Positions 1-64,000 of a DNA stretch of 64,000 bases are shown here, piece after piece; position 1 is the first letter of the stretch; the number at the start of each line of letters is the position of its first letter. This DNA comes from Aptenodytes patagonicus (taxonomy: Eukaryota; Chordata; Aves; Sphenisciformes; Spheniscidae): NCBI RefSeq assembly GCF_965638725.1, contig NC_134956.1, positions 1,488,001 to 1,552,000 of the forward strand, read 5' to 3'. The position numbers and the translations under genes are program-made. The notes beneath the pieces were generated by a model, which was not told the DNA's origin, did not search any database, and worked only from the letters and a program-made list of their open reading frames with translations.

Positions 1-308
1 CGTGTTGGGATCCACTTCTGCCTTCGTGAACTGCAGGCACTGGAAGGGGGGTCGGGTAACAACGTGGGAGCCAGGCGTAGGTGGCGACTGCCAAAGCTGC
101 AGAGGGGCCTGGTGACCTCTTGGCTGGCTCCTTGCAGCTCTCCAAACACTCTTTCCAGGCCATGTGCAACACCCCTCGAGGGGCGGAGGGACCAACATAG
201 GGCCCCTCGCGGGGGAAAAACCACCATCCATGCTTCTCGGGGAGAAGAGCCCGCTGGCCCGTGAAAGGCTGCACCAGCGCCACCTGCTCACCTGCTCCCC
301 ACGCTCAC

Positions 309-385
309 CACAGAGCAGCCCGGGCAGCCCTGGCATGCAGGGCCACCAGGAGGAGGAGGAGGCGACGGCGGCGGGCAGGGGCCAT
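309..385 (-). CDS. Possible first coding exon of an unidentified secreted or membrane protein
   Basis: On the minus strand an ATG in a good context (the palindrome GCCATGGC) opens 25 codons reading MAPARRRRLLLLLVALHA and then an Ala/Arg-rich stretch. This is a classic signal-peptide layout: a basic n-region followed by a Leu-rich core. The frame runs straight into GTGAGC, a consensus splice donor, at plus positions 303-308, so the piece would be a 77-nt first coding exon with the rest of the gene left of the window. Upstream on the minus strand (plus 509-539) are two exact copies of a 12-bp block containing TGAGGTCA, a CRE/nuclear-receptor-like site. I cannot name the gene. The plus strand also encodes a Leu-rich signal-like peptide from the same palindromic start (MAPCACTMLLLLPLSLLLLP), because the region is CTG-rich. 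It lacks a consensus donor, so I prefer the minus strand, weakly. Confidence 0.3.
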
Positions 386-508
386 GGCCCCTTGCGCTTG
401 CACCATGCTGCTGCTGCTGCCGCTGTCGCTGCTGCTGCTGCCGCTGCTGCAGTCGGGGCCGGGGGCTGAGCGGTCGGTGCTCGTGGCCGGCGCGGCACCA
501 CAGGGCTC

Positions 509-539
509 TGTGACCTCACAGCCCCGCTGTGACCTCACG
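509..539. promoter_or_regulatory. Pair of exact CTGTGACCTCAC elements, 19 bp apart
   Basis: CTGTGACCTCAC occurs at 509-520 and again at 528-539. The core TGACCTCA (TGAGGTCA on the other strand) resembles variant CRE/ATF sites and AGGTCA nuclear-receptor half sites. The pair lies about 125-155 bp upstream of the candidate minus-strand ATG, a normal promoter distance. Binding is an inference from motif shape only. Confidence 0.35.
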
Positions 540-1094
540 GCCGGGCCGAGGCTGCGTGGGGACGGCTCTCAGGGCGCTCGTGGAGAGCCGCTGGCACACA
601 GCCGGGGGAGCTGCCCTCCCGGGGAGGGGAGCACGTCCCGCTGGGCAGCTCTGTCCAAGGGCTGGGACACAGTCCCACCGGGGGCTGAGCCCACAGCTCT
701 GCTCTGCTTCCCGGGCACCGTCACAGGGGCAGCGAGGAGCTCACAGTCCCCCAGAACAACAGGAAACCACAGCCAAGGGATTTCTGACCTCCTCGGGTGC
801 TGTTAGCCACAGCTCATGAGGCTGAAGCGTGAGTGATTTCAGTCTCGCGACAAGTGCAAGATCCCCTCCTGTAGGCAGCTTCCAGGCTGGAGCCCAGTTT
901 GACGCCTTGGGGCACCCCAGGGCTAACGAGCCACTTTCCTTTTGCGGGAAAAGATGAAGCCTTTACTTTTCCATTTCTTCTTCTTGTGAAATTTGAGGGA
1001 ATGCTTTCCGTCAGGGTCCTCAAAGAGCAAAGTCAATCAATAAAACAGAAAAGATATCCTCTTAAATTATTTGACATGCAAAAGGGAACCTCGA

Positions 1095-1171
1095 GAGAGC
1101 CCACGGTGGGTAGATGCTGCCTGACCAACCTAGTGGCCTTCTATGATGGAGTGACTACATCCGTGGATCTG
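1095..1171 (+). mobile_element. Fragment of CR1 LINE reverse transcriptase
   Basis: The plus-strand frame reads CCLTNLVAFYDGVTTSVD across about 1,116-1,169. From memory this matches a stretch of avian CR1 ORF2 just upstream of the YLD..KAFDTV block of the reverse transcriptase. The match ends abruptly after the Asp: the expected Lys-Gly-Arg-Ala continuation is absent and the DNA downstream is unrelated. This is a short, dead fragment. It could alternatively be an exapted piece, but nothing nearby supports that. Confidence 0.6.
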
Positions 1172-4100
1172 ATGTCCTACAGGACCAGTCATGAGACGTT
1201 TGTTTTCAGTCTGATGAATATTCCCTTCTAAGCAAATACAGAATTTTAGAAAGCGAACTAAGATCCCTACTTCAGGCTTCATACTCTTCAGTGAGTGCCT
1301 ATAAAGGGTCATTCTCTCAGCCAAAACAAGAGATATTAAAATATGAGTATATCAAAAAAAAGAACCTAGCATTCTGAAGGAGACACACGAGACATTAGTT
1401 GATTATTTGATGCTGAAAGCTTAGGTAGAAGATAGGACCCAACGGTAGGGCATGGGATCAAAGGGAATTTCGTGAAACAGGTATTTCTTAACCCATGCAA
1501 GAGCAAACATCATCCGGAGTTTTTCTTAGTTACTACATCTAGCAGTGAGGAAATTCACCATGGCAGCAGTTTTGCATCTAAGAAAGTAGAAGAAAGGCGC
1601 AGTATTAGAGATGTCTCTTTCTGTGCAGCTATGACTTAGAAATCTGAGGAAGTGTATCGTCACAAACCTTCGTGGCAGCTGTCCTCACTGCCCGTCAGGA
1701 CAGCCTCCGCTGGAAATATCACAGCACACAGAGAGCAGCAAACGCCATCCTGCTAAAACCCTGCAGTGAACCAGGGACAGGCTGCCATGGCAGGTTGGAA
1801 CGTGCTAAACGCTGCCGAGCGTCAGCAGTTCATACTATCACAACACAACACGAGGGAGCTGGCAGCATCCCAGGCCTGGCTAAGTACAGCAGAGAATGAC
1901 TGAGAGCAGGGAGGGGCGTCCACACTACCCCCGGTTTCTGGGATTTCCCTATTTTTGCCTTGGAGGAGTTCCTACCCTCACTTTTGCATTTCCTAGAGCT
2001 TTACTACAATATCACAGATCCTCTGAACTATCACGGGCAACACGCTGGTGATGCAGGAGAGAGCAGGGAAGAGACCAACCCTCTTCCCAGCATCTTCTGG
2101 AGGAGAATAAACTGGGACTGACCTATTGCAAGCAGTGGTAGGAATAGATTTCTTCATAGGAGGCAATAAAACAACCTATTTGTTTCTTTATTTTCTTACC
2201 TTAAACCCACAGCTTCTATGCTCTCTCTGCCAGTTAGGGACACATGCCAGCTGCAGCACACTGCTAAATTATGAACACCAGTTTCCAATGCAGCCTCAGG
2301 CTCTGAACTAATCCCTGAAAGGGTCTACACCAATATAGATATTTTACAAGTACACTTTTAGTAATAAAGGTATTTCACATTGAACCAAAACTGAGAAATC
2401 TAATGCCCGTATCTGACTTGCAGAGGATCTATTCAGTTCCAGTAAGGCAGGCCCAAGAAAACATGTGTGGACGTTGTCCATTTACCCTTTAAACTGGCTC
2501 AAAATGGCACTTAATCTAAAACCAAACAAGCCACCACCAAAAAAACCAAAAACCCAACAAAAACAAAAATGAGAGAAACATGAACATCACCGGCACAACC
2601 CCATCCTGTACTTCCTGACTTGATCTACCATAGTGGGCACTAATATGGCCACATTTCTCAGCAAAATAAACATTGGTCCATTTTCCTCCCCTGCCTCAAT
2701 AAAGTCAGTACGGTCTTTTAAGACAACATATGAACTTTTACCAGGAGAGCAGAGATCCAGCAACTCTCTACATCCTCATCTTACCTAACTGTTAATAGAC
2801 TTGAAATAAAAAGCCACATCAAACTACTTTGTCTGTCAGCCAGAACACGTTTTTGGACAAATCTTTTATTTGACATACCCTGCACACCACAAAACGAAGC
2901 AATATACAGAGTATTGCCCTGAGGTCTCAAAACACCTTTGCTGTCCTTGTCCTTGAGTTCTTGAAGAGATGCTCTGATTACACCCACTTCAATGGTCAGG
3001 CAGGGACAGATAATGGATCTAAAGAGCCTGACTCCAAAGTCTCAAAAGGAGAAATCCACCCTGATGGCAAATAAGCTGGGTGAAAAAATTCCATTGCTAA
3101 GAAGGGTTTCATGTCTCAGAAATTAGTAGGTGGCAAGCTATTAAAAATGAGTGGATGTTAAAATAATACATTTGACTGACATTTTTTTTATTTATATATA
3201 TATCTTGAAAGTCAAAGCCTCAGTTTAAGTATTTCAACGAATATTTTGTCATAGCATATAAAGATTTTTTCCAGGGTTTTACTTAATTTGCCAAAAAAAA
3301 TAATTACCTTTTGTACTTTTATATATCCATTAAGGAGAATTTGACCCATGTTACTCAGAATCTACTTTTTCCATAAGAACTGATTTATATTATATTGGAC
3401 AAGTGAAAAATTATATGGTTCTACTGCAATATTAATGTCAAGTCCAAAATTCAACTCACGTTGGCGGTTCCCACTATTGCAGGCAGCATCAGCCAGCTCT
3501 GACACCAAGTGTGTGCCGTGCATTCAGTGCTGTGTTTGGGCCCATATTTAAATAGTGAAGGACTTGATGCTGTATTTTGTAAAAATAACTGAATGCAGGC
3601 AATCAAGTTAACTCCATAAACAGGAAGCACCATGCGACTGTTACCTGTCCCTGCCTGCTCCATCCAAGTGATGTGGTCTTTGTACCACCATAAGGGTTAG
3701 CCAATGCCAGCTAAGAATTAAGAAATTGCATACTGGACTTCCGTAAGATTAAAGAAAAAATGGTGCGTGTCCTTATATTGCAATTTATGCTACCAGTTTC
3801 GCTGATAATTGTAATAGCATTTGCATGCAGGTAGTAACTGGCTTCCAATGACTGAAATGGTAAAGACAATGAATGAAGAAATACCATACTTTGAAACAGA
3901 TAAATAGCTCTACTTCAGGAAAGATAATGTATTAAATGCCAAACAGTGAATGTGTAACTTTTTATTTCTGAGAGCACTTTCTATTTCTATACTATTTGCA
4001 CTTAGGAACTGAACGACATCCACTATCAATATCTCTCTTTGCTGACTTCAGACATCTTTTGATCCAAGTACTTGGATTATAACATGTATCCAAATATCTC

Positions 4101-4515
4101 AAATACTACAACAGTTAACATAATAAGAAAACCACTTTTCAGTACATTATCACATTGACTGTCAAGGTGAATAAAGTGAGGCCAGTTAATGTAAAATGCC
4201 TGCACAATGACCACAGCAAATCACGACCGAAAGGAAGACGGAGCCGAGGTGTCCTGTCCCCGTGGCCTAAGCAGCCAGAGATCCTCCTTCAACCCTGGCT
4301 GCATTGCAGCCCCACTGAGCACCAAGAAAAGGGTTCTACTGAGAGGAAACAAACTTACTCTGTATCAAGATACTAATTTAGAGTGCAAAAAAGTCAAAGG
4401 GAATGTTCTACACAATAACATGAAACCCAAAAAGCATTCAGTGTTGGCAGTGACACCAGCTGACTGCAATACACATTGAAAATAACACCGTACTTCCCAC
4501 GCAGGGTTTCCACAC

Positions 4516-4562
4516 ACTCCTATTGATACTCCTATTTTTACACCTATTTTTACACCCATCTC
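4516..4562. repeat. 12-bp-period tandem repeat, about four imperfect copies
   Basis: Successive units are ACTCCTATTGAT, ACTCCTATTTTT, ACACCTATTTTT and ACACCCATCTCA. On the minus strand one frame gives a Val-Gly-Ile/Lys repeat, which I regard as accidental. Copy number would probably vary among individuals. Confidence 0.75.
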
Positions 4563-6073
4563 AGTTACAGAGCACACCTCCTTTCAGTATCCTCTGCTCG
4601 TCTGCACCACGCAACACAACTTGCAGGACACAAAGGTTATAGAAAAAGGAGAAGGACTAGAGATAAGAACAGCAACAGGCTGCTGGTGAAACAACAGGGA
4701 TTACACATTATTTTCCAAACGTACTGGTGACTAGAAAACTCTTGCTACACTACGATCAGACTCAACATTCAAGCAGACATTTTGTCTTCAATTCCTAGCA
4801 TAGTGTCCCCCATTTACTCCTCTTGCTTTCTCTAGGAAAGGTCTTGAATCAGAAAGATGGGGGAAAAACAACTCTCCTTAACTACTAGCCTGAAGCCTGC
4901 TGGCTTCACTCCTAATTTCTAGCTAATTGACAGCGGTTCACTACATACAAGAAAATTTATGTATGTCTGAGACCTGAATGCCAAATCTTCATTCCCATGG
5001 AGTAGGAATATCCCAAGTAAGCAGAGCACAGAACCGACCAGCTTTGCCCCAACCGAAGTTGCAATCATGTCCACAGATAGCTGCGGGTGGGCTGGAGATA
5101 ACAAAAGATGGAACATAGTTGCTATGACAACCAGGTATTAACATCCCCAAAGGGCAACATCTGATCAGTGTGTGTGCGCACATGCACCATTATCCACCTG
5201 TTCATGATTATACTTGTCCAGTTACCTTGATTTCTTTCAGTCATTAATCTATTAACTCCAATTTCCTAGCTACTGCACAACACACGATATATTTAACAGT
5301 AGATGAGGAATGTCTCATGTGGTTTCCATATCCCTGTCTAAAAGCAGCGAGCCAAATGCTACTGTCTTGGTAAATACACAAGCCTTACTGACAGCAAGGG
5401 GTTATGCCTGTCAGAGACTTTCAACAGTGGACACAGAAGCCTTTAATACATTTCAGTACCTGGCAGAAAGCAGTTACTTGAATGTTCCTCAAACACATGC
5501 CATGTTAGCTTTCAATGTTGTTGAATTATTCCATTCTCTAAAAAATGCATTTTAAAGACACTAATGATAACAAAAGGAATATTGCTAACAAGGCATAGGC
5601 TGACTTTTTGAAGCAGCTTTCAGCACAAGGTAATGAAAATGTGAATTGAAATGAGTGAACAAAACCAACAGACACAATTCTAAATGAAAAATTACAGGTA
5701 GTAAAATGATTTACCACCACAAGGAACTTCCCTTGTGTTGAGATGCAAAACTCCTCTAATTAGAGTAACAGATGCTGGATTGTTTCAACACCTCTGAGTG
5801 TTAATCACCCAAGAGCGTACTTAAATCGAGACTGAGGTGTTCCAGCAGAAAGGAGAATGTCCTGGTGTAATACAGTGATTTTGCACATGTGCTGGGTGGG
5901 ATCAGAGATGCAGGACATGCAATTAAACTGTCAGCATCTCGGAGAAGGGAACTGCCACTGCCATGGAGATGTTATGACAGACACAGGCTGGTTCTAGAAG
6001 TCTGGTGCCAGCAGAGAGGGGCTGCTCTGGCAGCTGTCAGAAAAGGGTCTTCCTCATGTGGTGAACCACCACC

Positions 6074-6247
6074 ACGGAAACCTTGAGACAGACACTTTCG
6101 TGCTCCGTGTGTCTGGGGCTGTTCACACCCCCCGTCCTGGTCCTGTCCTGCGCACACAACTTCTGTAAGCAATGCCTGGAGAAGATCCTGCAACACCAAA
6201 ACTGTCACCACGTCAACGTGTTTTTCCACTGCCCCCTGTGCAGGAAG
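6074..6247 (+). pseudogene. TRIM-like exon 1: RING finger, start codon replaced by ACG
   Basis: The 58 codons hold a complete C3HC4 RING: C-x2-C (CSVC), C-x-H-x2-C-x2-C (CAHNFCKQC) and C-x2-C (CPLC). All eight zinc ligands are intact. The frame is closed by TGA at 6,062-6,064, and the only codon at the expected start is ACG at 6,074-6,076. The first ligand Cys is residue 10 counting from that codon, the same spacing as in TRIM13 (M-E-L-L-E-E-D-L-T-C), so ACG most likely derives from the original ATG. The exon ends CGG-less at Lys (AGG AAG) with a good donor, GTAAGG. ACG initiation is possible but rare. Confidence 0.75.
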
Positions 6248-7315
6248 GTAAGGAGGGGTGATCCTACATTCTCTGTGGAAGCTGGGCAGATGCCACATCT
6301 CGTAGTTAGGAGACTTTTGTTTTAATTTGAAGTGGCAGGTATGCCCCATCTCTTCACTGGAGGACAACAGTCCTCACAAGGAGTAACACGCCACGTCACA
6401 TTTGTAATGAACGGAACAGGTTATTTGCAATCACTCCCATGTTTTTAATAGCGTGGCATCTGTGTTTCCGGTCCCTGAACGCGCTACTGCTGCACTGAAA
6501 CCTCGCCTCACAATCCTTGCATTCCTACCGGAGGAAAAATGTGCAAATGCTAAATGCTATCTTCTTTATATCAGGTATTTTCTAGGATTCTGACTAAACA
6601 AGATATTTGCTTACCGTTGTTTCCCAGGTCGACAGGTTGCAGGTTTATTACATAAGTAAATCAGCAGATTTTCTTGAAATTTGGAACATACTTATTTTAA
6701 TATCCATATTTTACAGACTTCTGTAAGTGCCAAGTCCACTGTGAAGGCTTCTCTTAGGGATAGATTCTGCCACCAAATGCTAATACATAGCATTTTAAAA
6801 CCTTCTCACAGTCTTTATGGAGGCAAAACCTTAATTCAGTGAAAACTGAAGACATCTATATATTCCCTGTCTAGCATGCAAGTAAATTTACTGACTTCAG
6901 GGAGTAAAAGGTTCAGGACTGGATTCTCATAATGCCTTCAGGACGTGCCTCTGAATATTTAAAAAAATACACTTTTTACCTGTTAACAGAAACCATAAGA
7001 TCTCTCTGCTTGATTTGCTAAATTCTGTGTCTCGGACTAAACAATGCAATTCCCGTTGGTTTAGGGTAAAGTCCCTATACTCCGAGGCAAAATATGGGCA
7101 AGTGATACTCACGAGCCTTCAAGTTACAAAATACATGTTTGAATGAAATGGCTGTCTAGGTACTTCTGCAATATTTCACCACGGTTTAAATCTTATTAAT
7201 GTAAATATCAACTAAATAAAAATGACGTATTTTTTTCCTACATTATACTGAATTATCAGAGAAACAAAGCATTCTTGTATTACTCAAACTATTTTACTAT
7301 TTTTTTCCTTTGTAG

Positions 7316-7474
7316 GTCATTTATTTGAGGGGCAGAGGAATTGTCGGCCTGCTACGAAATAGCCTAGTTGAAAGTATACTGGAGAAATTTAAATATGAGC
7401 TTGAAAAAATCTGTACTCAGGAGAAAAGACAGTCGTCCCAAATCTGTGAAGAACATGGAGAAAACATGAATTTG
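7316..7474 (+). pseudogene. TRIM-like exon 2: linker and first half of B-box 2, donor destroyed
   Basis: A pyrimidine-rich tract ending in TTTGTAG precedes this exon. It encodes 53 residues, including the MuRF-like block LLRNSLVESILEKF and the first B-box ligands C-E-E-H. Homology to TRIM13 (L-N-I-F-C-L-T-D) places the exon end after N-L at 7,474, so that exon 3 continues M-C-L-T-D. The next six bases are CTATGA where a donor such as GTATGA is expected. Read-through gives one extra Leu codon and then a TGA at 7,478-7,480. The first donor base therefore appears mutated from G to C at 7,475. Confidence 0.65.
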
Positions 7475-8284
7475 CTATGAATTTTTATCTATCCCTTTTC
7501 ATTTTAGTAACCTGCACACTTTCTATCCTATAAGTGCTAAGTCCTTACTAAGTCCAAAATTTCTTTATTGAAAATCCTAGTGGGTGGTCAATACTTCACA
7601 AGGTCCTTACATACAGCAAAGTTATTCTAATAACAAATTATATAATAAAGATATAGAAATTTATTCCAAAATTATAACAAAAATGAGATAATACTGAATA
7701 TTGATAAGGATTTCTTACCCAGAATATTTTTATCCATCCCACTAATAGGGGGTTTTCTGCAGCCACTAGCAAGCAGCTTCATAAACTTCAAAAGAACGGT
7801 AACCTTTTTAAAAGTCAAGCTCAGCCTTTCGGACTGAGTAACGGCAGAACTAAAACTGTTCCTATTAAACCTGACCAAGTGGTGTAAGATAAGTATCTTC
7901 TTTGACTTTTCTAAGCACTGTGCTAAAATGACTAAAAAGGACCAGAGTTTCCTTCCCTTCTTCATACTGAATACTCCCTTTCCCAATAATCCACTGATGA
8001 AGCTAGCTGCAAAAGCCACAGAAGCGTGGCTAGAGGTAAGCACGAGTAGTCCCAGTGAAATCAATCCTCTGAGAGGCCCGAGCTCTCATTCCTCAAGGAG
8101 TTCAATCATTCTACTACCATTCCTACACCAGCACTTACTAGAGAAAGCAACATATATATATAATAATCATAAATAGCTCAAAGACACAAAACCCCTTCAT
8201 TCATTCTATGGACTGGAAGACCCAGTGCCACAGATGGTGATTAGGCATCACTTTTTAGACACATTGTGGATGCATATTGTCCAT

Positions 8285-8376
8285 TTGTGTTGGAAAATTG
8301 CATCTCCTCTTTGAATTCTCCCACTGGCTCCCCGTTTCACTGCACCTCACTCAAGCCCCTCAATTCACACGCTCCG

Positions 8377-8416
<40 letters not shown>

Positions 8417-8810
8417 ACTACATCTGCCTTCTGATCTGCTCTTCAGTCTTACGATGCTATTTTGGTATCTCCTCCTGTTCCACCAGTGAAGCCATCGCTC
8501 ACTGTGTCCCACACAGATGTGCACCTTCATCAGCCAGGCACAAAAAGCACTTCCTGAACTAAGCCATAAATCAGAGTTCTTTCCGTCCTATAAAATAACT
8601 CAGCTTGTGTGTATGCGTGTGTGACTGTACTAACCTGGAAACAAAATTACAAATATAGGAAGAAACAGGTATTTATCCTTCCTGCAGGTATCACCTACCT
8701 CCATCATTCTTAAGTTTTCTGGGTAAGGACTGCATCTTCACCTGCAGTTATGCATCACTTTCCACTATCCCCCATCCCAGCGGGGTATCTAGCACTACGT
8801 ATCACCAAGA
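8285..8810 (+). mobile_element. Ancient L2/L3-like LINE fragment, interrupted by T33
   Basis: About 8,300-8,372 reads S-H-W-L-P-V-S-L-H in one frame. This is the hallmark HWLPV block at the C-terminus of L2/L3/CR1-superfamily reverse transcriptase, followed by a degenerate continuation. A 33-base T run (8,379-8,411) interrupts it, after which C/T-rich sequence resumes. At about 8,708-8,800 the sequence around CTGGGTAAGGACTGCATCTT and GGGGTATCTAGCACTAC resembles the 3' end of such elements (GGGCAGGGACT...TGCCTAGCAC). Family assignment is from memory and needs a repeat-library comparison. Confidence 0.4.
8379..8411. repeat. T33 homopolymer
   Basis: An uninterrupted run of 33 T lies inside the LINE relic in the third region of the TRIM gene's second intron. 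It may be an expanded microsatellite or the reverse complement of a poly(A) tail from an insertion. Such a run is a likely site of length error. Confidence 0.9.
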
Positions 8811-9172
8811 TGCAAAATACAAAATACTGTGTGTACTCTAAGGTCCAATAATATGGTATATCAAATGTGAAACTTCCCTATACCATCTGATATCAAAATT
8901 CACATGACATACAGGAAGGGAGTACACTTTTTTTACTCAGCAACTAAAAGGCACGTGGTTTGGCAAAATTCGTATCATGTACTGCAAATGCCAACAGAGC
9001 AAACACAGCATAACAGCAATCTTGGTTTGGAAGACAAACACTGCAGCTTCACCAGCAACACTCAGTTTTGGCACTTGTAACAGTACCTAACAACAGACAG
9101 ACCAACAAATTACTTGGATTATTTTGCTTATACATAGATACTAACTCTCCTTGTGTATTTTTTCTCCCTCAG

Positions 9173-9332
9173 ATGTGCCTGACTGACGATGAGCCAATAT
9201 GTGCAATCTGTAAACTCTTTGGAAAACACAAGGACCAATGTTGCAAAAGTATCAGAAGCTTACAATGCAAGAAAAAAAGCATTTATAAAAAAATTACACT
9301 TAGTTCACAAGAAATCTGAAGAAGCTAGGAAG
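9173..9332 (+). pseudogene. TRIM-like exon 3: second half of B-box 2 with one-base insertion
   Basis: The exon follows TTTTTTCTCCCTCAG and begins M-C-L-T-D-D-E-P-I-C-A-I-C, giving the C...C-x2-C ligands of B-box 2. The family pattern expects H-K-D-H-V-A, but the DNA reads GAC CAA TGT TGC, which ends in a stop 26 codons later (TGA at 9,317-9,319). Dropping one A at 9,237/9,238 restores a histidine at the last zinc-ligand position. It also opens a new frame (V-A-K-V-S-E-A-Y-N-A-R) with a TRIM13-like continuation to a donor AAG|GTACAAG in phase 0. The exon is 160 nt, one more than a multiple of three. This is strong internal evidence for a single-base insertion. Confidence 0.7.
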
Positions 9333-10651
9333 GTACAAGTGACTCATCTGAGATGATACTAACAAAATCACATGATCCCTGGATGTTTGACAGAAGATTA
9401 GAGAGCTGCATTTTGATTCCGACAGTAGGCAGTCAATTTGTAGATTTTCAAGAGAGGCTTAGGATATACAAGATAAAATGGCTTAGCAGGAGGAGAATAA
9501 GAACATATTTTAATCCTTACTTAGATTGTATTATAGGCCTGGCCAAACTGGCTCTTTGTCTTTTGTTCACCTAGTTATAACATGAGCTTTGAATACCAAA
9601 GCTTTTCTCACATCTTCAAAATTTGTTAATGTTCATTAAGTAGATGAAGAAACATACCAAGACATATTACTGGATGTGGGCTTGCAAATTTTAACTGCTG
9701 TTCTCTGCAAAGAACATGCAGTACATGCAATCTGCCATCCCAAATACTTGCAGTAACACATGTACAGAGCACAAATATTCCTGCAGAATACCTTGTGACC
9801 AATGCCTTTACTAGATAAGTGGGCTTGCAAGGAGGCACTTAAGAGCTGGTGGAAAAAACTGGCACCTTACTACTCTTATCTTTATCCAAAGGTATCGTGT
9901 GTTTGAATAGTTCCTAAGTCTCAAAGTAGATGGCTTATTCTTTGAAAGATATGCAGACATCACCTGGATATGCTCATGTCCTGGTCAGTGCAGTTAACAC
10001 GCTACTCCGCTCCCACCTTGCTGATCGGCAGGGGATCCCACCTTCCCAGAAGTGCTGCTGTGTCTCATGTGACTTCACTGATGCACTAACCTTGGCAAAG
10101 CTGCAGCCCAGCTTTATTCCCAGCTTCCCCTAGTGAAAGGGTTACGGAAATACCAGTAGCCTTTTCATTCTCAGTACATGAAGAGCAAGTAGGCCACATC
10201 TCGCCTGAAAAAAACTTGCAAACCCAAACAATTTATACAGTTTCTCTCACTGAACTGACTGCTAGTTCCCTCCTCTGCTCACCTTGGTGCTACCTCCACA
10301 ACGAAGGCTTGAGCACAGCACACAGTTGCCACAGGTTCCTAAAGAAAACAAATCACATTCCCAAGAAAAGACATTTTAAGAGATCTATTTTGAAAAGCAC
10401 CCTGCAGTTCAGGTAACTTGCTAACCTAGAGACAAAATAGCAAAACATTTCAAAATGCATTTACAATTATTTATATTTTCATTTGGCTTTGAGCACTAAC
10501 AGCTGCCAAAATTGTAGAAAGTACACAGCCTATAATGTGTATTGACATAAAATATTTTTTGAAAGTTAAAAGTGCATTTACCTACCCTGAACACTACTTG
10601 GACACACGGTTATGATGCAATACTAACTTTTCATTAATTTATTTCACACAG

Positions 10652-11224
10652 GAAACTGAAAAGCTGACTAATGAGCTAACAGCTGGTGCTACAGACACCA
10701 AGGTAATGATTGACACAGTTGGAATGGGTTTGCTGAAGGGCATATGGTACCGAATGGCTGAACTGCAATCCAAGTTACACCATGACTATTCTACAAAACT
10801 GGAGAAACTGCAGGTAATCTCAAACGAGGCCAAAGCTTCTGGACAGCTTTATCAGCAAATGGAAACCCTCCTGGAACAGCACGAAAACTCTGTACAATTT
10901 CTACAGGAGGACAAAAAATTCAAGGAAAACATAGAAAAAGTGCTAGAAGGAAAAGGCTCCTATCAGGACCCACCAAAGCATAAAATTTCAATGCAACAGT
11001 ATTTTGAAGAGCTCATCAGAGGAATTAATATCAAGGATTACTTCTCTACTGCATGCGAGGAGATGCTTCCAAGTACCACTGACATATCCGAGACACATCA
11101 ATGTCCTGCCTTTGTTTTTTCAGATAGGAGTCCTGATCACCACTTCTGCAAAGAAGTACTGCAACAGTTTGAGAAGTCAAGTGACACTGTCACACCCCAC
11201 CTGCGGGAAGGGGAGAGTGACTAA
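10652..11224 (+). pseudogene. TRIM-like exon 4: coiled coil and C-terminal COS-like segment
   Basis: The acceptor is TTTCACACAG. The exon is open for 190 codons to TAA at 11,222-11,224. Residues from about 30 to 110 of the exon are rich in Leu, Lys, Glu and Gln with heptad spacing (for example LQSKLHHDYSTKLEKLQ), as expected of a TRIM coiled coil. The stretch MQQYFEELIRGINIKDYF resembles a COS box. The C-terminal 50 residues are not recognised. A potential donor AAG|GTAATG lies inside at about 10,700, but the frame stays open through it. This exon carries no visible lesion, so loss of the gene is either recent or incomplete. Confidence 0.7.
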
Positions 11225-13362
11225 GATCCACAAATCCCCTTGGTGTGGATTAAGGTGAAATAACACTCAAGGTCCAAAAACAAACTCCCACTTTAATGGC
11301 ACAAACACTTCTATAAGCATCAACCCTCTATGTCTTAATATATAACACAAGCTAAGCGGCTTTGTGAGGAGCTGAGGTAGGCCTTGTGTTACTTAACAAC
11401 ATCAAAAACCAGAAAGCAAGAAGGAGAAGGAGGAGAGAGAAAGAGAGAGCTGGGCAGCAGAAGAGAGGGAGAGGGAGAGAGAAAGAAATCACCAATCCTG
11501 GATCCAGCGCCGGACCTGCCAAGAGGGGGTGTCGGTGTGGAGAGTGCCCTCAGGAGGCTCACATGCGCCCCTATTTATTGGCTCCAGCCCAAGGTTTCTA
11601 GAGTCTTCTCTCACCCCAGCTCCAGGAGTGGTTGAGACATTAGTCAGTCAAGGAGAGTGACACCGGGCCCCGCCCCGTGGCTGGCTTCTGGAGCTTTCCC
11701 TGGGGCATTCTCTGTGCTTACAGCACAGCCATGTGAGCCTCGTCCCTTACAGACATCAAGCAAGATAATTTTGAAAATGCAGGCCCCCCTGCACTGCAGC
11801 ACTAATGCGGACACCAGCATTAGTGAAAAATCAGCTTTTACAGATTTGCCGACAGGATAAATTAAAGCACTATCTCCTGACATTTAGCCTTACTTTCCCA
11901 GTCATATGTGCTGCCTATATATTCTACCAAATGACTGAAAGGCACTTTGAAAGGTTAACAGAATGAGAGGTATTTAGTATATATCCTCTGTTGCATGCTT
12001 TATTGTAGCAACACAAATTAGTAACTGTTGGGACGCTGGCACTAAAAGAGTAGCCTAGGACAGAGTAACACAGGCTGTCTAACCAGGGTGGATTTAGAGA
12101 TGTCGGGGAAAAGGACCCTGTGTACAGCATGTGCTGTGAATCCTTCCTACAACCCCGACAGCTTCAAGTTTATTCTCTATGAGAAATGTAATTCACATCC
12201 TAAGCACTAAATTTGAGCCTTAAACCATGACCACACACAGTTAATTCCATAAAAACCTACATACGAAGGTTAGTTTAATAACTTATTTAAGGGAACTACA
12301 AAATAATTTAAATTTATTTTAAAATTATAAATGCTAGGCTACAACACTTCACATATTTGGTCATCTGCCTGATAATTTTTCCAGAACAGTCAACAATATA
12401 TTAATAGGAGTGCACCTTTTAAATTTTTGAGAGGTACAGAGCCTAACTGCCACTTTTTCCCTTACATAATTTCTCTACATTCCTTTGCTAACTAACACAA
12501 AAGCATTTCTGCTTTTCAGGGTAATGTCTGCTCAATCTCTGCACATTTTAACTTTGGAAAACTTAAAAAGCTATCAGCTTCATTTTCTTTTGGCTCTTCT
12601 GGTAGAATCAGAACTAACTTTTTGGAAATCTAACAAACACAGGACATGTCAAAGAGTACTCCTTGTACTATGTGAGAAGAGATCCATAGGATTCTGGGGG
12701 ATTATTATGTTCCACATGTAGGTGGCTTTCCTTTTAAAATACCATTTCAGATCAGGCCTGGGGGTGGTAGTGATCAAAGCCCTGATGCTGAAGGCTTATA
12801 GGATCAGCCCCGCATGCCCCCTCTCGGTACCAAGCCTCCTCGTGCAAACACAGACATTGCTAATGAGGGTCACCGACGAGACTGGGGCCAAAAGCTGTCA
12901 TTTCCCCACAGCTCCTTGGTACCCCACATGAAAGCGGGATGACAGGCATACCGGTGGAATGCGAAAATCGATTCTAAAAAGAGCAGATATTGCATCCCTG
13001 ACTTGTTTTGCACAAAACCGACCCCAAACTTGCTGTCCTAACTACTCTCAAGATGATTTTGAGATAACATGCACCAGCAACTCTATTCTCAACCTGTCTT
13101 GTTGCACATGCTTAATGCAAGAAGTGGGAGACACAGTCCTCATACCAAATTCCATTTGACGCTTTTAGTCTGGTTTCCAAGGTACATGTATGTGTCCATC
13201 CTTCTTCCTCTCATTCCTTTTGAACCCACCGACCACTTTCAAGCCAATTTAACTAAGTGCAAAGAGATTAAGTTCCCACAAGCTTCATGATCGTTTTCTA
13301 TTAGCAGTCTCTGTGAAAAGAGGGTGCACATAAGTTTAATTTTTTTTTTTTTGACATTACAG
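11225..13362. other. Noncoding DNA downstream of the TRIM gene
   Basis: I see no exon that I can support. An A/G-rich tract (AGAAGGAGAAGGAGGAGAGA and similar) covers about 11,408-11,490. The rest is unremarkable AT-rich sequence. Confidence 0.55.
11408..11490. repeat. Polypurine (GA-rich) tract
   Basis: About 80 bases of nearly uninterrupted A and G with imperfect GAGAGA and GGAGAA units. Such tracts can form triplex DNA, but no function is shown here. Confidence 0.75.
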
Positions 13363-13444
13363 GATTCATATGGGAATGGTGGAGAAATATGAATGCCCTA
13401 ATTGTGAGAAAAGCTTCAGCTGTCACTTGTACATTACTAGATAA
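13363..13444 (+). pseudogene. Relic of a C2H2 zinc-finger coding segment
   Basis: After a long T tract and a splice-acceptor-like ATTACAG, one frame reads IHMGMVEKYECPNCEKSFS. This matches the linker and first half of a Kruppel-type finger (H-T-G-E-K-P-Y-x-C-x2-C-x-K-x-F-S) with Thr, Glu and Pro replaced in the linker. The first zinc-ligand His would follow twelve residues after the second Cys, and a TAA stands exactly there (13,442-13,444). No further fingers are visible. It is therefore a decayed fragment. ZNF169 lies near the human let-7a-1 cluster, so shared ancestry is conceivable but unproven. Confidence 0.5.
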
Positions 13445-14514
13445 TGGCAAATCCAGAAGCAAACAGAAAACAGGAATCTAGGTTTCACTGGTTCCACTGC
13501 TATGTGACCATGCACTTCCATATTCACCAGGCTGAGACACTCCCTCCAGTCCCAATGTTGCCAGGTCTTTTCACACTTTTTTCATCTTTACTATTTTGAC
13601 CATCTTCTAATTTTGTATAATTTGTAAAGACACATGTACTGACATTTTCACTGTTACACAGAATGAATAGAACTGGGACCAACCATGAATTTTATCCTGC
13701 TTCTTAACTTAGAGCCCACCAAGGTGCTGCCCTAAGATGCTGTTCAGGTGCTGTTTAATTGCAATGAACATTGTGCTCAGAAGGTAAACTGAGCTTCACA
13801 TGGCTAAGGTTACAGCTTGTAATCACTTGCTGCTGCAGTCAAGCAATGCTCAGAATAACTTCACTGTCATTTCTGATCTTTTACACTTGGTACAGCCGAA
13901 GCTCAAGTATGGTACGAGGAAATCGGCAGCAGCCAGGGCCAACAGTACCACCTGTTTACTGCATCTACCAGTCCGGGTCAGAACTCGGGCTTTCTACATC
14001 ACCCCTTTTTCAAAGAATTTTATTCGACTGATTTATCATAACAAGTGATTTATACGTCTGAATTATTTTCTTCTGTACTGATACCAACTGCATTTGCCCA
14101 CAGTGTTTGTTTTCAACGTGTTCTACACTGTGATCCACCTTCAGGTAAGGAAAAGGGTTTAGACTCTCCAATTCCTATCTGTCCTAAAGAAATACAGAGT
14201 AAGGTAAGCAGAACTTTTTGGCACTATTTTGCAAGACCAAAGACTCTTCCTAGGATATTACATTTCAGGACACATAGTTTCAATGTCCCTTGATCTGCTT
14301 TTAAAATAATTAGTGCTATTGAAAATGGCCTGCTAATCCACAACTATGTGCATTCCAGTAAAACAGATGGGCTGGCATTCCTTATTAAAATACAAGACTT
14401 ACGTTAGGCAAAAAGTGATAAAACAATTCACTTTCCGAAGAAAAATTTGTCACGTCAACAACTCTCTGGTGCCTGACTGGACATACTGTAGAACTGTACT
14501 CTAAGCCAGAAACA

Positions 14515-14609
14515 ATGTCATTTCCCAATTATGAGTATAATGAGCAACGGCCACCAATGAATCAGCGTGCATCTGGCAAAGCGCAGGCCCAAAAGAACAC
14601 CGTCACTCA
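14515..14609 (+). CDS. Unidentified exon-like ORF with consensus splice donor
   Basis: An ATG opens 31 codons (MSFPNYEYNEQRPPMNQRAS and 11 more, Gln/Lys-rich) that run into CA|GTAAGTATT, a near-perfect donor. The frame also continues upstream (Pro-Glu-Thr) to a possible acceptor CTCTAAG. The composition looks coding-like, but I recognise no family. It could be a terminal or lost exon of a neighbouring gene, or chance. A further short exon-like piece (about 14,108-14,152, acceptor CCCACAG, donor CAG|GTAAGG, one frame hydrophobic) lies nearby. Confidence 0.25.
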
Positions 14610-14611
14610 GT

Positions 14612-16480
14612 AAGTATTTCCTGCTTTGAAAATAGATGTGTCATCTATAGAACGCTTAATTTTTGAAAAATGCTTCTGTATCCCTCCTCATTTATCTGAT
14701 AGCTGGGATTGACTTCCTTATTACAGCACTCTACTCCTCCGGCAAATCCAGCCTCCAGCAATCCTCACTATAGACAGCACAACCTGTAAATTACTAAAAA
14801 TGTGAATTTACATATACCTCTTACAACCTTTCTGAATATAACTCCTGAAAAATAACATTTAATAACTACTACTTCTAGTAAATTCTGTCTGTGTGCTAGC
14901 AAGAATTATTACAGTGGCTAAGCAAAATACAATGGTAAGATGGTATTTCACTGCTGAATGTGTTACTTGGACAGTCATCTTTCTCGGTACTCATACCCCA
15001 TCTTGTGACCTACGCTGGAAGTGCAGGAGCTACCAAAGCGCTTCTCGGTTGTACCTGGCAGACACCTGACAAAAGCTTCTCACCCTAACACGGGCTGTAG
15101 CTCCAATATTCATCAGAAAATGAGTCAAATTACACCTGCAAGTAAAGATTAAGAAGTAATTTAGCAGCTGGCCGAATTTATTTGACAAAGTTTTACGTGC
15201 ACAAGGATGAAAGCTGCATTTGGGTTCACCTTTCAGCTGTTGAGGCATCATGATTTAGTTTGTTCGACATGCAAAACGTCTGCCTTACCCAGACAGGTGT
15301 CGGGTCACTGTTTAATCTGTTCTTTGCTCTCATCACCAAAAACAAGGCTCCATGTTCCCTTCTCACATTTGTGATAAAAGTCATTATTTCTGAAGACAGG
15401 ACACCACACACACAAGAACTTCATCATTCAAACGCTATAAACTTTTACAAGATTGTTAAGAACTCACAAAAGTTTCATTATTTCTAAAATTTCTCAAAAG
15501 AAGAAAACATAAAAGCTTACTTACAAAAACAGACCGACAAGAATACTCTGTGCATTCACACTTTTTTTAAGGTATCTCTATCTCAATGATCTGTGTCTGA
15601 AGTTTGTGCTGCTCTGAAATACTTTGATATGCCTTATAGCCCCTGTGCATCTCCAAAGCATTAAAAAAGAATTGATCAGGAACATAACCAGAAAAGGTAT
15701 TTTGATCAAGTAACAACACACTAACATAACACTTCCAAGTCAGATTGCTTCTGAAGTAAAACAGGATAAAACCCAAATGCAGAGGCAGAGAGAAAAGTAC
15801 AAACTTTGCCAAAAATACACAATTCACAATAGAGCGTCAACAGCGAGCTAGAGGTTTATCTCATCCAACCGCAAAGGCCAGTAACCTGAAAACAGGAATC
15901 ACTTACAAGGGTGGCTGGTACAAAAGAGACTCTCTTCCCAGCAAGGAACAGTACAGACTCATTACTTCAAGAGCCCATTAGCATTGCAGGGAAGGATGAA
16001 GAAAGAGAAAGTACTTCAGTGGTTTCTCCCCAATTAAACAAGATTATCATCTATCACAGAACGCTATGGACAAAGCAATTAAAACTCTAGTTGTTGCTCA
16101 ACCATCTACTTAAATAGACTACAAAAATACGATGACAACAAAAGCTGCCAACACCAAGGAGAAAAGCTGCTCTTGCAATGCTGAGGCTAACAAGAGCTCT
16201 GGATAAAAACTGCACGTACAATATGGTGTGTTTATTGGGAACTGTTACTCCTCACCCCCTCAGGAGAGCTCGCTAAAGACACTGCAGTTGACCACGCTGG
16301 TTAACCTATGCTGGCTGCAGCTGGTGTTTGTGATTTACCCGCCGTCATACTACTTGGCACCACACAACAGTTTGGATGGCCACTGTTTGGACAGATGCAT
16401 TACCACTACTCACAAATTTTTTTACCCGTTTCCAGTCTAAGCAGCTTATGAGAAACGACACGGAAGCAGCCAGAAGGGCC
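14612..16480. other. Noncoding DNA between exon-like ORF and CpG island
   Basis: No supported gene. Open frames on both strands are short, lack splice sites and carry no motifs. GC content rises from about 16,450 on as the CpG island begins. Confidence 0.55.
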
Positions 16481-16816
16481 AAAGGGGATCCAAAGCCCTT
16501 GGTAACGGTGCTAACAAGAACCGCAACTAGTGGCTGTCCTGGAAACGCCAGCCACCGCTGGCCCCAAGACTACAAACCAACACCAAGTGACGGCAGGAGG
16601 GTGGAGGACACACACGCCGGCCGGGCCACGAAAGGCCACCCGGGCCGGGCCGCGCAGCCCCTTCCTCAGGAGAGGAGGGCACCGCCGCGGAGAGGCACCA
16701 CCACAGAAAGGCACCGCCGCGGCGGGGAGCAGCCCCCAGGGAGTGGGGGTAGGGGAGGACGATGAGCGGGAGGGGCCGCGCAGGCCGAGCGCGGGAGCTG
16801 CCGGGCAGCCGCCAGA

Positions 16817-24400: not shown

Positions 24401-25094
24401 AAACAGTGTCTATTTTAAGTGGCCTTTTGGTAAGGCAGTTTAACAATGAAATGTCAGGGTATAGGCTGTAATCTTAATGAGTTTTGTTTGTAATAAAAGA
24501 ATCCCTGTGCACAGGACTTTATGTAATTTAACACTAACAGAAGCAGCACAAAATACTACTTTTGACAGTACATGATGTTCTTTGAGCTATTAACTGCTAG
24601 GATAGCTGAAAAAAGTCACTATGTAATATTACTTATTTCATCAGAATTATAAATATTAGGGCCTCGTACTGATCCATGTAAATCAGCTGCATAGCTATGG
24701 TCCTAGATTTCATTATTTTTAAGTTCTAAAGAAGAAATTTACATCTGCATACGATGTTTCTGATACTTTTCTTCTAATTTCAGATGAGAGGTTACATCTG
24801 TGGAACATGAATAGTAGTTTTCCTTTCACAGAAGTTTAATGACTATAGTTGCTATGACTACTACAACTTGCTAACTGTCTAAAGATGAAATATATTAAGA
24901 CCCAAGCAATTGGTAAAATTTTGAAATTAAGGAATCTTATCTTTACAATAACTTTATTGCATGACTGGGGGGAGTGAGGGGAATGCTTTTTCTATGATCA
25001 ATATTTTACACTGTACGTGCTGTCTGCAGCTAGCCTAACTTGTCTTTACTAAAGCGACACTCTCTCTACATCAACTCTGAAGATGCCTGCGCTG

Positions 25095-25174
25095 TGGGAT
25101 GAGGTAGTAGGTTGTATAGTTTTAGGGTCATACCCACAACTGGGAGATAACTATACAATCTACTGTCTTTCCTA
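25095..25174 (+). ncRNA. let-7a-1: let-7a-1 microRNA precursor
   Basis: The 5p mature segment (25,100-25,121) starts TGAGGTAGTAGG and has the full 22-nt let-7a sequence. The 3p arm (25,151-25,171) reads CTATACAATCTACTGTCTTTC. The two arms pair to give the standard let-7 stem, with a loop beginning TTTAGGGTCATACCC. The loop differs slightly from the mammalian one while both arms are kept. let-7a represses growth and timing mRNAs such as LIN28, RAS and HMGA2 through the seed GAGGTAG, and its maturation is blocked by LIN28. It is first in a three-hairpin cluster, 7-8 kb downstream of the CpG island. Confidence 0.97.
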
Positions 25175-25536
25175 AAGCAGCAGAAAATCAACAATGGAAA
25201 CTTTTGAATTTTAAGCTCAGTATCAGATTCTACTGAACTTCTGTACTTACTATGCTTATTATAGGAGAAAATATTTCTGTAACACCGATGGGTAATTGTG
25301 TTTAGATTTTTCTAATCCTTGGAAAAGCTAGGTTATTATTCTACATTAATTTTTCTCCTCTAATGAGTAAAAAATTAAGAATAGATTGATTCCTGTATGT
25401 GTATGGTGGGGTAATCAAATAGATGATTGATGTTCCAGTTGTGTTGTTTAACATTGCTAACTGAAGTATCTAATATCCTTTAGAATGAAACTGTGGTTAG
25501 CTGCTTAAGCTCTTTGCTGAAGTATATGCTTCTCTG

Positions 25537-25623
25537 TCAGAGTGAGGTAGTAGATTGTATAGTTGTAGGGTAGTTATTTTACCCTGTTCAGGAGATAACT
25601 ATACAATCTATTGCCTTCCCTGA
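25537..25623 (+). ncRNA. let-7f-1: let-7f-1 microRNA precursor
   Basis: The 5p mature segment (25,543-25,564) differs from let-7a by the diagnostic A in TAGATTG (GAGGTAGTAGATTGTATAG). The 3p arm is at 25,599-25,620 (CTATACAATCTATTGCCTTC). Flanks TCAG and CTGA pair at the base of the stem, as in the mammalian precursor. The hairpin lies 442 nt downstream of let-7a-1 and shares its seed, so it targets the same mRNAs. Confidence 0.97.
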
Positions 25624-26602: not shown

Positions 26603-26689
26603 CCTAGGAAGAGGTAGTAGGTTGCATAGTTTTAGGGCAGGGATTTTGCTCACAAGGAGGTAACTATACAACCTGCTGCCTTTCTTAGG
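26603..26689 (+). ncRNA. let-7d: let-7d microRNA precursor
   Basis: The 5p mature segment (26,610-26,631) begins AGAGGTAGTAGG and continues TTGCATAG, the features that set let-7d apart. The 3p arm (26,664-26,685) reads CTATACAACCTGCTGCC. The base of the stem pairs CCTAGGA with TCTTAGG. Compared with the human precursor as I recall it, the 3p arm has A for G at its seventh base. The miRBase chicken let-7d, as I recall it, has GTAGTGGG; this sequence has GTAGTAGG. That would argue against chicken, but it is from memory. Confidence 0.96.
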
Positions 26690-51075: not shown

Positions 51076-51470
51076 TAAACGCCCTGCCGGTGCCGGGGGC
51101 TGCCCGTTCCGCCCGCGGCTGCCCGCTCTGCCCGTGGCTGCCGGTTCCGCCCGAGGCTGCCGGCTCTGCCCACTCTGCCCGAGGCTGCCCGCTCTGACGG
51201 CTCTGCCCGCCCTGCCCGAGGCTGCCCGCCCTGCCCGAGGCTGCCGGCTCTGCCCGCTCTGCCCGCGGCTGCCCGCCCTGCCTTCTCTGCCCGAGGCTGC
51301 CCGCCCTGCCCTCTCTGCCCGCTCTGCCGGCTCTGCCCGCCCTGCCCGAGGCTGCCCGCCCTGCCCTCTCTGCCCGCTCTGCCGGCTCTGCCCACCCTGC
51401 CCGAGGCTGCCCGCCCTGCCCGCCCTGCCCTCTCTGCCCGCCGCAGCCCGCCCTGCCCGCTCTGCCCGCG
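51076..51470. repeat. GC-rich minisatellite, roughly 9-bp period with higher-order units
   Basis: Units such as CTCTGCCCG, CCCTGCCCG and AGGCTGCCC recur about 40 times. Two near-identical longer blocks run from CTGCCCGAGGCTGCCCGCC to CTCTGCCGGCTCTGCCC at about 51,290-51,390. Minus-strand translation gives an Arg-Ala-Gly/Gly-Arg-Ala repeat and the plus strand an Arg/Leu/Pro/Ala repeat, because the period is a multiple of three. I take both as artefacts. The G-rich strand is the minus strand. Confidence 0.85.
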
Positions 51471-53487: not shown

Positions 53488-53558
53488 ATGAACAGGAAAA
53501 CAAGGCGCTGGATCTTCCACATCTTCCTGAGCCTGGGGATTGTGTATATCAAGATCGG
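53488..53558 (+). CDS. WNT7A: WNT7A coding exon 1 (signal peptide)
   Basis: ATG at 53,488 opens 23 full codons plus two bases: MNRKTRRWIFHIFLSLGI, then VYIKI. This is a basic n-region with a hydrophobic core, and it aligns with the human WNT7A start (MNRKARR...LFLSLG). The donor is GG|GTAAGTAAC. Exon 2 completes the Gly codon, which fixes the frame. WNT7A is a secreted, lipid-modified Wnt ligand that signals through Frizzled/LRP. It patterns the dorsal limb ectoderm, the female reproductive tract and synapses, and with RECK/GPR124 it supports brain vessel growth. WNT7B is ruled out because its start reads M-H-R-N-F. Confidence 0.96.

Positions 53559-64000
<10,442 letters not shown>

Follow-up and report, generated by a model that had tools for sequence, protein, structure and literature searches.

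A probable unitary pseudogene of a TRIM-type gene upstream of the let-7a/f/d cluster and WNT7A in Aptenodytes patagonicus

A gene of TRIM type lies on the plus strand of the Aptenodytes patagonicus window (the whole stretch of 64,000 nucleotides that was analysed), upstream of the let-7a/f/d cluster and WNT7A. The locus raises the question of whether this gene has been lost in place or can still give a product, and to which branch of the TRIM family it belongs. We consider it very probable that the locus is a unitary pseudogene, the sole copy detected in this genome of a TRIM gene with introns and a RING/B-box/coiled-coil architecture. In the neighbourhood, the three let-7 genes were the sole matches of an Rfam scan, a tRNA search of the window found none, and the Wnt family was recognised in one of the six open frames of the window that were run against Pfam. 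Six-frame translations of positions 1-5000 gave no Pfam match, and those of 11500-16499 gave just three weak ones, all below the family cut-offs (E up to 0.1). Since CHCHD4, TMEM43 and LSM3 sequences matched nothing at E <= 0.01 in the window and in 150 kb of flanking sequence, the upstream side is left without a named protein-coding neighbour.

Exon structure, domains and copy number

The features of the gene are collected in Table 1. All exon joins are in phase 0, in agreement with the original prediction, and the three introns (1068, 1698 and 1319 bp) all fall within the tripartite motif, with GT at donors 1 and 3 and AG at all three acceptors. The RING finger, also predicted to be intact, showed all eight C3HC4 ligands by eye, and exon 1 matched Pfam zf-RING_UBOX at 1.8e-08. 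When the exons were read through with an X at the frame change in exon 3, Pfam recognised the RING at 2.5e-07 and the joined B-box at 2.9e-07; the exon 3 half of the B-box by itself reached 0.0068, which is below the Pfam cut-off. RING, B-box and coiled coil follow one another in the order of TRIM (RBCC) proteins, the coiled coil being recognised only from weak homology and from helices in a low-confidence model.

Table 1. Features of the TRIM-type gene and of the inserted LTR (positions in the window)
Feature	Position	Strand	Remarks
Exon 1	6074..6247	+	58 codons; RING finger; canonical donor
Exon 2	7316..7474	+	linker and first B-box ligands; donor lost
Exon 3	9173..9332	+	160 nt; remaining B-box and start of coiled coil; internal frame change
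Exon 4 before the LTR	10652..11187	+	coiled coil and C-terminal region; open, 178 codons and two bases
Solo LTR inside exon 4	11188..11751	- (probably antisense to the gene)	564 bp; TG..CA ends; flanks GACAC / GACAT
Right target-site copy and resumed exon 4 frame	11752..11805	+	frame closed by the gene's own TAA (11803-11805)
ATTAAA, possible poly(A) signal behind the gene's own stop	11861..11866	+	consensus match only

The case for a TRIM gene stands on the RING finger, on the B-box once its halves are joined, and on how the exons are ordered and phased; exon 4 is its weak part. Before the LTR this exon runs for 536 nt with no stop or frame change, and 2 of 300 first-order Markov sequences generated from the same 10 kb contained an open frame that equalled or exceeded its 202 codons from stop to stop. 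Pfam assigned exon 4 to no TRIM family (the best match, PhaP_Bmeg at 4.8e-4, was under that family's cut-off), the PDB returned ArfA alone, at E 0.03 and above, and the coiled-coil part matched a set of six TRIM proteins at E 3.4e-4. Structure prediction for exon 4 alone, LTR-coded end included, had a mean pLDDT of 41.3, too low to be of use. The domains suggest that the product would have been an E3 ubiquitin ligase of RING type lacking a membrane anchor.

Searches for further copies covered a 1.35-Gb assembly. The DNA of exon 4 (10640-11180) had one match genome-wide, which was itself (1 candidate), and the exon 4 protein likewise found itself and nothing else (3 candidates, E up to 1). The whole reading gave 32 matches, five of them at this locus and none of the others above 52% identity. 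Elsewhere the genome holds TRIM13 and TRIM59, each as one frame open from stop to stop (410 and 407 codons), and exons of TRIM54, TRIM55, TRIM63, MID1 and a MID2-like gene; because all of these are present separately, the locus is none of them. That the locus is a recent duplicate of some working TRIM gene, or a processed copy of one, is extremely improbable. A processed copy would have lost its introns, and they are present here, as had been foreseen for a gene in place; the recent duplicate of a working paralogue, which the original prediction had named as the finding that would speak against it, was not found in the assembly, where neither a second exon 4 DNA match nor a second coiled-coil protein match at E up to 1 was returned. 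Disabled, with its introns kept and no working copy found elsewhere, the gene has the character of a unitary pseudogene. As expected of contig collections that contain no birds, no relatives were confirmed there, neither the one patterned stretch in viral contigs nor the 13 stretches in genome contigs.

Three small lesions and a solo LTR

Three lesions had been predicted, at the start, at a donor and in the B-box, and all three were present when the sequence was judged against paralogues and splice rules. At the start, ACG stands at 6074-6076, where TRIM13, TRIM59, MID1 and MuRF carry Met; exon 1 contains no in-frame ATG, and the first one occurs at 7466, within exon 2. This ACG is preceded by A at -3 and followed by G at +4. 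At the donor of exon 2, CT replaces GT at 7475-7476 (TTG/CTATGA), and reading on leads to TGA at 7478-7480. Exon 3 has a length of 1 mod 3: the B-box frame extends to about 9232 and, if continued, reaches a stop at 9317-9319, and the coiled coil runs from 9237 in another frame. The change of frame falls at the last B-box zinc ligand.

The claim that a last exon of 190 codons was intact did not survive, since an LTR had been overlooked: the last base of codon 179, the last 11 codons (180-190) and the stop (11222-11224) all belong to the LTR. This LTR is a high-copy element. Nine other copies, compared from among the 39 matches listed, aligned with it over its full length at 90.7-92.3% identity, and all nine shared its ends. 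The target-site copies in the window agree in four of five bases. Among the nine other copies, four had perfect 5-base target-site copies, one agreed in 4/5 and one had none; the remaining three continued into a common internal sequence, by eye on the side expected for the antisense orientation. AATAAA was present in the LTR on the minus strand only. The TG..CA ends, the target-site duplication and the copies with the same ends identify a solo LTR. When it was removed and the flanks were joined, the exon 4 frame was open for 194 codons in total, up to the gene's own stop. A seemingly "intact" exon can be partly mobile element, and a whole-genome copy count exposes it.

The four sequence changes are read directly from the DNA; from them we infer the consequences for the product. 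The missing Met start would block the gene. Loss of the exon 2 donor would cause either the skipping of exon 2 or read-through into the intron, ending after one codon, the frame change in the B-box, at its last zinc ligand, would disrupt the product, and the solo LTR would displace the C-terminus and the 3' end of the gene. An assembly error behind four such unlike lesions is unlikely, and loss of the gene here is believable.

Age and completeness of the loss

Lesion counts gave a neutral divergence of about 0.02 (0.004-0.06), and the branch of the LTR, about 0.044-0.055, sets an upper bound on divergence. Had the gene been free of constraint ever since the LTR inserted, the probability of seeing three or fewer further lesions would lie between 0.009 and 0.6 under the rates assumed, so the gene may have outlived the arrival of the LTR. 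The "recent" death of the original prediction can therefore be bounded only, at about 0.02 (0.004-0.06) from the lesion counts and at most about 0.05 from the LTR. A segregating or very young loss, in which working alleles persist and a broken haplotype happens to have been assembled, would suit a gene with three small lesions only and a divergence estimate reaching down to about 0.003-0.006, but it has a slim chance at best, since four unlike lesions stand on one haplotype and the branch of the LTR, even as an upper bound, far exceeds the usual diversity within a species.

The lesions also leave room for a shortened ligase consisting of RING and coiled coil, with no B-box, which would survive if exons 2 and 3 were skipped together, translation began at the ACG and the LTR supplied the C-terminus and stop. 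Splicing exon 1 directly to exon 4 would preserve the reading frame, both exons are free of internal stops and frame changes, exon 2 has no donor, the ACG lies in a strong context and the frame crosses the LTR junction to a stop. Such a ligase is nevertheless highly improbable, because it requires three things at once: an unusual start codon, the skipping of two exons and a C-terminal tail taken from the LTR. The place of the single internal lesion is no sign of selection, since it is a lone lesion and 29-30% of the internal target lies in exons 2 and 3; selection keeping exons 1 and 4 was unsupported by this target-size test.

Placement of the lineage among known TRIM families

The gene had been described as intermediate between MuRF and TRIM13, and the phylogeny that had been proposed as a check gives this weak support. 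The trees leaned toward TRIM13/59, but not firmly (72/77 and 78/85, unstarred), and tree tests rejected neither a MuRF clade (p 0.21 and 0.18) nor a MID clade (p 0.14 and 0.10), so that no placement was reached. In pairwise comparison with six human TRIM proteins, the top match was MID1 without its first B-box (31.5% over 314 residues), a relative that the original prediction had not named, and the introns coincided with neither MuRF nor TRIM13/59 positions. On the best reading, the gene belongs to a separate TRIM lineage, akin to TRIM13/59 and to MID/MuRF, that the trees cannot place.

TRIM13 and TRIM59 (class C-XI) likewise have a RING, one B-box and a coiled coil, the last weakly similar to that of the penguin gene. 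Their coding regions typically lie in one exon. In this genome both are single long frames with a hydrophobic C-terminal segment, whereas the penguin gene has three introns and no such segment (best 19-residue mean of 0.87 in exon 4 versus 2.25 for the C-terminal part of TRIM13 and 2.58 for that of TRIM59); it thus shows neither the C-terminal transmembrane segment nor the one-exon coding region of the class. MID1 and MID2 share its start position and a similar B-box 2, but the MID1 and MID2-like frames found here hold the RING and both B-boxes in one frame, in contrast to the single, intron-split B-box of this gene.

The MuRF genes (class C-II) are alike in linker and B-box, and TRIM54 and TRIM55 carry Met at the corresponding start. 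A MuRF paralogue (TRIM54/55/63/101) is an unlikely identity even so. Linker and B-box are 39% identical to TRIM55 over 84 residues and the MuRF clade survived the tree tests, but the exon ends of TRIM54/55/63, as read from tblastn pieces of this genome rather than from base-by-base splice sites, fall within the RING loop, ahead of the B-box and where the coiled coil begins, coinciding with none of the three introns of the penguin gene, and TRIM54, TRIM55 and TRIM63 are each present separately. No COS-type C-terminal stretch could be aligned by eye in the pairwise alignment. TRIM101 (MuRF4), named among the possible relatives, is judged unlikely by synteny, since in the fishes described in PMC9353778 it sits on the crh2 paralogon and the present locus lies beside let-7/WNT7A; the sequence itself leaves the MuRF clade unrejected.

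A 2023 study (PMC10445537) reports TRIM215, a further relative of TRIM13/TRIM59 that occurs in duck and chicken and has no mammalian homologue. The duck protein is presented there without a C-terminal membrane segment, and because duck TRIM13 too seems to have none in that account, the missing segment discriminates little. Whether the lineage of the penguin locus may be this TRIM215 is, for us, an evenly balanced question of candidate identity. A TRIM lineage absent from mammals is plausible, and it would already have been published if the identity holds. In that case nature would have knocked out, at this locus, a TRIM ligase for which no mammalian homologue is reported, and a comparison of birds with and without the gene could reveal its role. 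TRIM215 as described and the penguin locus both lack a membrane segment (in duck, for TRIM215); the former is a reported gene in duck and chicken whereas the latter is broken.

Exon structure and lesions of the TRIM gene

The four exons lie where the original prediction had put them (see table). Every exon join is in phase 0, and GT or AG was present at donors 1 and 3 and at all three acceptors. The translation of exons 1–4, joined with an X at the frame change in exon 3, matched RING (2.5e-07) and B-box (2.9e-07) families in Pfam. A PDB search with it returned TRIM proteins, with TRIM21 at the top (1.2e-09), and Midline-1 was its top match among chains consisting of a B-box only (5.3e-09). 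Exon 4 taken alone was weakly supported as a TRIM exon: it matched no TRIM family in Pfam, its ArfA matches in PDB were at chance level, and an open frame as long as its own occurred in 2 of 300 Markov sequences. The intact ancestral gene presumably encoded a RING E3 ligase.

The gene carries four sequence lesions, including the three predicted originally, at the start, the exon 2 donor and the B-box frame. The conserved stretch opens with ACG where the aligned comparison sequences of TRIM13, TRIM59 and MID1 have Met; the MuRF Met aligned with this position sits within a longer N-terminus. Met was also found there in the TRIM13, TRIM59, TRIM54, TRIM55, MID1 and MID2-like frames of the same genome, and exon 1 contains no in-frame ATG. 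With the normal start absent, no RING-bearing protein would be made from one. Behind exon 2, CTATGA stands where the GT donor is expected and read-through meets a TGA after one codon; exon 2 would be skipped, or read-through would end the product there. The two halves of the 160-nt exon 3 are open in different frames, and the switch, either +1 base or −2 bases, falls at the B-box's last zinc ligand, so the B-box would be lost through the frame change. Finally, the 564 bp of a solo LTR in exon 4 would displace the natural C-terminus and the 3′ end. A surviving RING–coiled-coil protein from this locus would require three unusual steps together, and the positions of the lesions lend it no support. 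In outline, the earlier interpretation, a gene lost in place, is a good one.

Features of the TRIM gene and its neighbourhood (window coordinates unless a contig is named)
Feature	Position	Strand	Description
Tandem array	G000:C8 (contig of the searched assembly), 1388001 or further left to about 1484114		array loci L028–L032, L018–L022
Exon 1	6074–6247	+	58 codons, RING finger, Pfam zf-RING_UBOX 1.8e-08
Exon 2	7316–7474	+	linker and first B-box ligands
Exon 3	9173–9332	+	remainder of B-box, coiled coil start
Exon 4	start 10652	+	fourth exon of the TRIM gene
Complete LTR	11188–11751	antisense suggested	TG..CA ends, target-site copies, other genomic copies
ATTAAA	11861	+	behind TAA of joined frame
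let-7 precursor	25094–25175	+	Rfam
let-7 precursor	25537–25623	+	Rfam
let-7 precursor	26604–26688	+	Rfam
Minisatellite	51100–51469		GC-rich, 9- to 55-bp units
WNT7A exon 1	53488–53559		WNT7A match
WNT7A exon 2	54468–54716		WNT7A match

The LTR in the last exon and the age of the probable loss

A search of the 1.352-Gb assembly placed the window at C8:1488001–1552000; of the supposed exon 4, nothing but the end recurred elsewhere in the genome. Among 40 scored matches (206 candidates), one was the locus itself and 39 fell within query bases 574–630 (window 11173–11229). Comparison of the window with nine of these 39 places showed that all nine copies shared the TG..CA ends, with 90.7–92.3% identity to the window copy, which is flanked by GACAC/GACAT (4/5 bases identical). 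Target copies at the nine places included four perfect 5-base repeats and one of 4/5 bases; one place, L007, had none. Three of the nine continued into common internal sequence, which, read by eye and together with AATAAA on the minus strand only, suggests an orientation antisense to the TRIM gene. Since the LTR begins at 11188, the final 11 codons and the stop of what had been described as an intact 190-codon last exon are LTR sequence; the original prediction missed the LTR, so that of its observation the exons and three lesions stood and the intact last exon did not. When the LTR flanks were joined, a 194-codon open frame ended with TAA at 11803–11805, and this continuation of 15–16 codons behind the LTR gives mild support to a once-coding exon 4. 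The LTR family has many genomic copies, and the branch of the window copy is longer than those of the nine copies among themselves.

The lesion-count age took stops, frame shifts, start and splice sites as targets at three indel rates, with exon 4 counted to 11221, LTR-coded codons included, and the LTR itself not scored as a lesion. Three lesions gave a neutral divergence of 0.016–0.030 (Poisson limits 0.003–0.088) over the three rates and 0.021 (0.004–0.062) at the middle rate. The LTR's own branch (three-point rule, 36 pairs of nine copies) was 0.055 (0.044–0.073) for all sites and 0.044 (0.032–0.056) without CpG, an upper bound because the copies, being among the best matches, may represent a younger subfamily. 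At a substitution rate of about 2e-9 per site per year, the lesion count would correspond to about 10 million years and the LTR to at most 20–28 million years. The probability of three or fewer lesions since LTR arrival was 0.009–0.6; the gene may have died together with the LTR insertion, or later.

Genomic neighbourhood and copy number

From their mature sequences we take the three let-7 precursors to be let-7a, let-7f and let-7d. This cluster follows the TRIM gene at a distance of about 13 kb and precedes WNT7A exon 1 by about 27 kb; its promoter may be a GC-rich stretch located at about 16.5–18 kb. WNT7A matched Pfam wnt (8.6e-16), and its later exons lie past the window, within the following 26 kb of contig. 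The minisatellite precedes WNT7A exon 1 by about 2 kb. On the side away from let-7 and WNT7A the analysis named no protein-coding neighbour. A tandem array, GC-rich and at least 96 kb long, built of 111-bp sub-units within longer units, ends there about 10 kb from exon 1 of the TRIM gene. All five array loci checked contained the 111-bp unit, and five 1.5-kb samples taken further left along the contig all lacked it. Together with the original prediction, this gene arrangement points to a bird genome. The loss is of an ordinary kind, though its location is interesting.

With the LTR removed, exon 4 had no match in the genome but itself, whether searched as DNA (one match, one candidate) or as protein with E up to 1 (one match, three candidates). 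The whole reading gave 32 matches, five at the TRIM gene locus and 27 of at most 52% identity. Relatives were named by best match to the comparison proteins, among the matches that had a locus (all but two of the 32). They comprised TRIM13 (410-codon stop-to-stop frame, 76.7% to the human sequence), TRIM59 (407 codons, 61.0% to the human sequence), exons of TRIM54, TRIM55 and TRIM63, MID1 (97.8% over 93 residues) and a MID2-like gene (86.0% over 93); the remaining matches look like other TRIM genes. Judged by this copy count and the separately identified relatives, the TRIM gene represents a lineage of its own.

Relation to known TRIM lineages

Among six human comparison proteins, MID1 gave the best pairwise match (31.5% over 314), followed by TRIM54, TRIM55 and TRIM63, then TRIM13 (27.1%) and TRIM59 (24.1%). 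The coiled coil alone leans towards TRIM13 (E 3.4e-4; TRIM59 0.003, MID1 0.017; same six sequences, composition adjustment off). The gene had been proposed as an intermediate between MuRF and TRIM13. Trees of 7 and 12 rows, the latter without the TRIM55 and MID1 pieces or the further TRIM matches of the same genome, placed it next to TRIM13/59, although not firmly (support 72/77 and 78/85, respectively); neither a clade with MuRF (p 0.21 and 0.18) nor one with MID (p 0.14 and 0.10) was rejected. The TRIM gene formed the longest end branch in both trees, so its placement is tentative.

In the same genome, the exon ends of the MuRF genes do not coincide with the introns of the TRIM gene, and nothing interrupts the frames of TRIM13 and TRIM59, whereas the TRIM gene has introns. 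The lost lineage may already have been reported. TRIM215 has been described in duck and chicken as a class C-XI distant relative of TRIM59/TRIM13, said to have no mammalian homologue (PMC10445537), and we consider the chances about even that the TRIM gene is TRIM215. Duck TRIM215, like duck TRIM13, is seemingly without a membrane segment in the same account (PMC10445537), and exon 4 of the TRIM gene, searched up to the short stretch behind the LTR, likewise has none.
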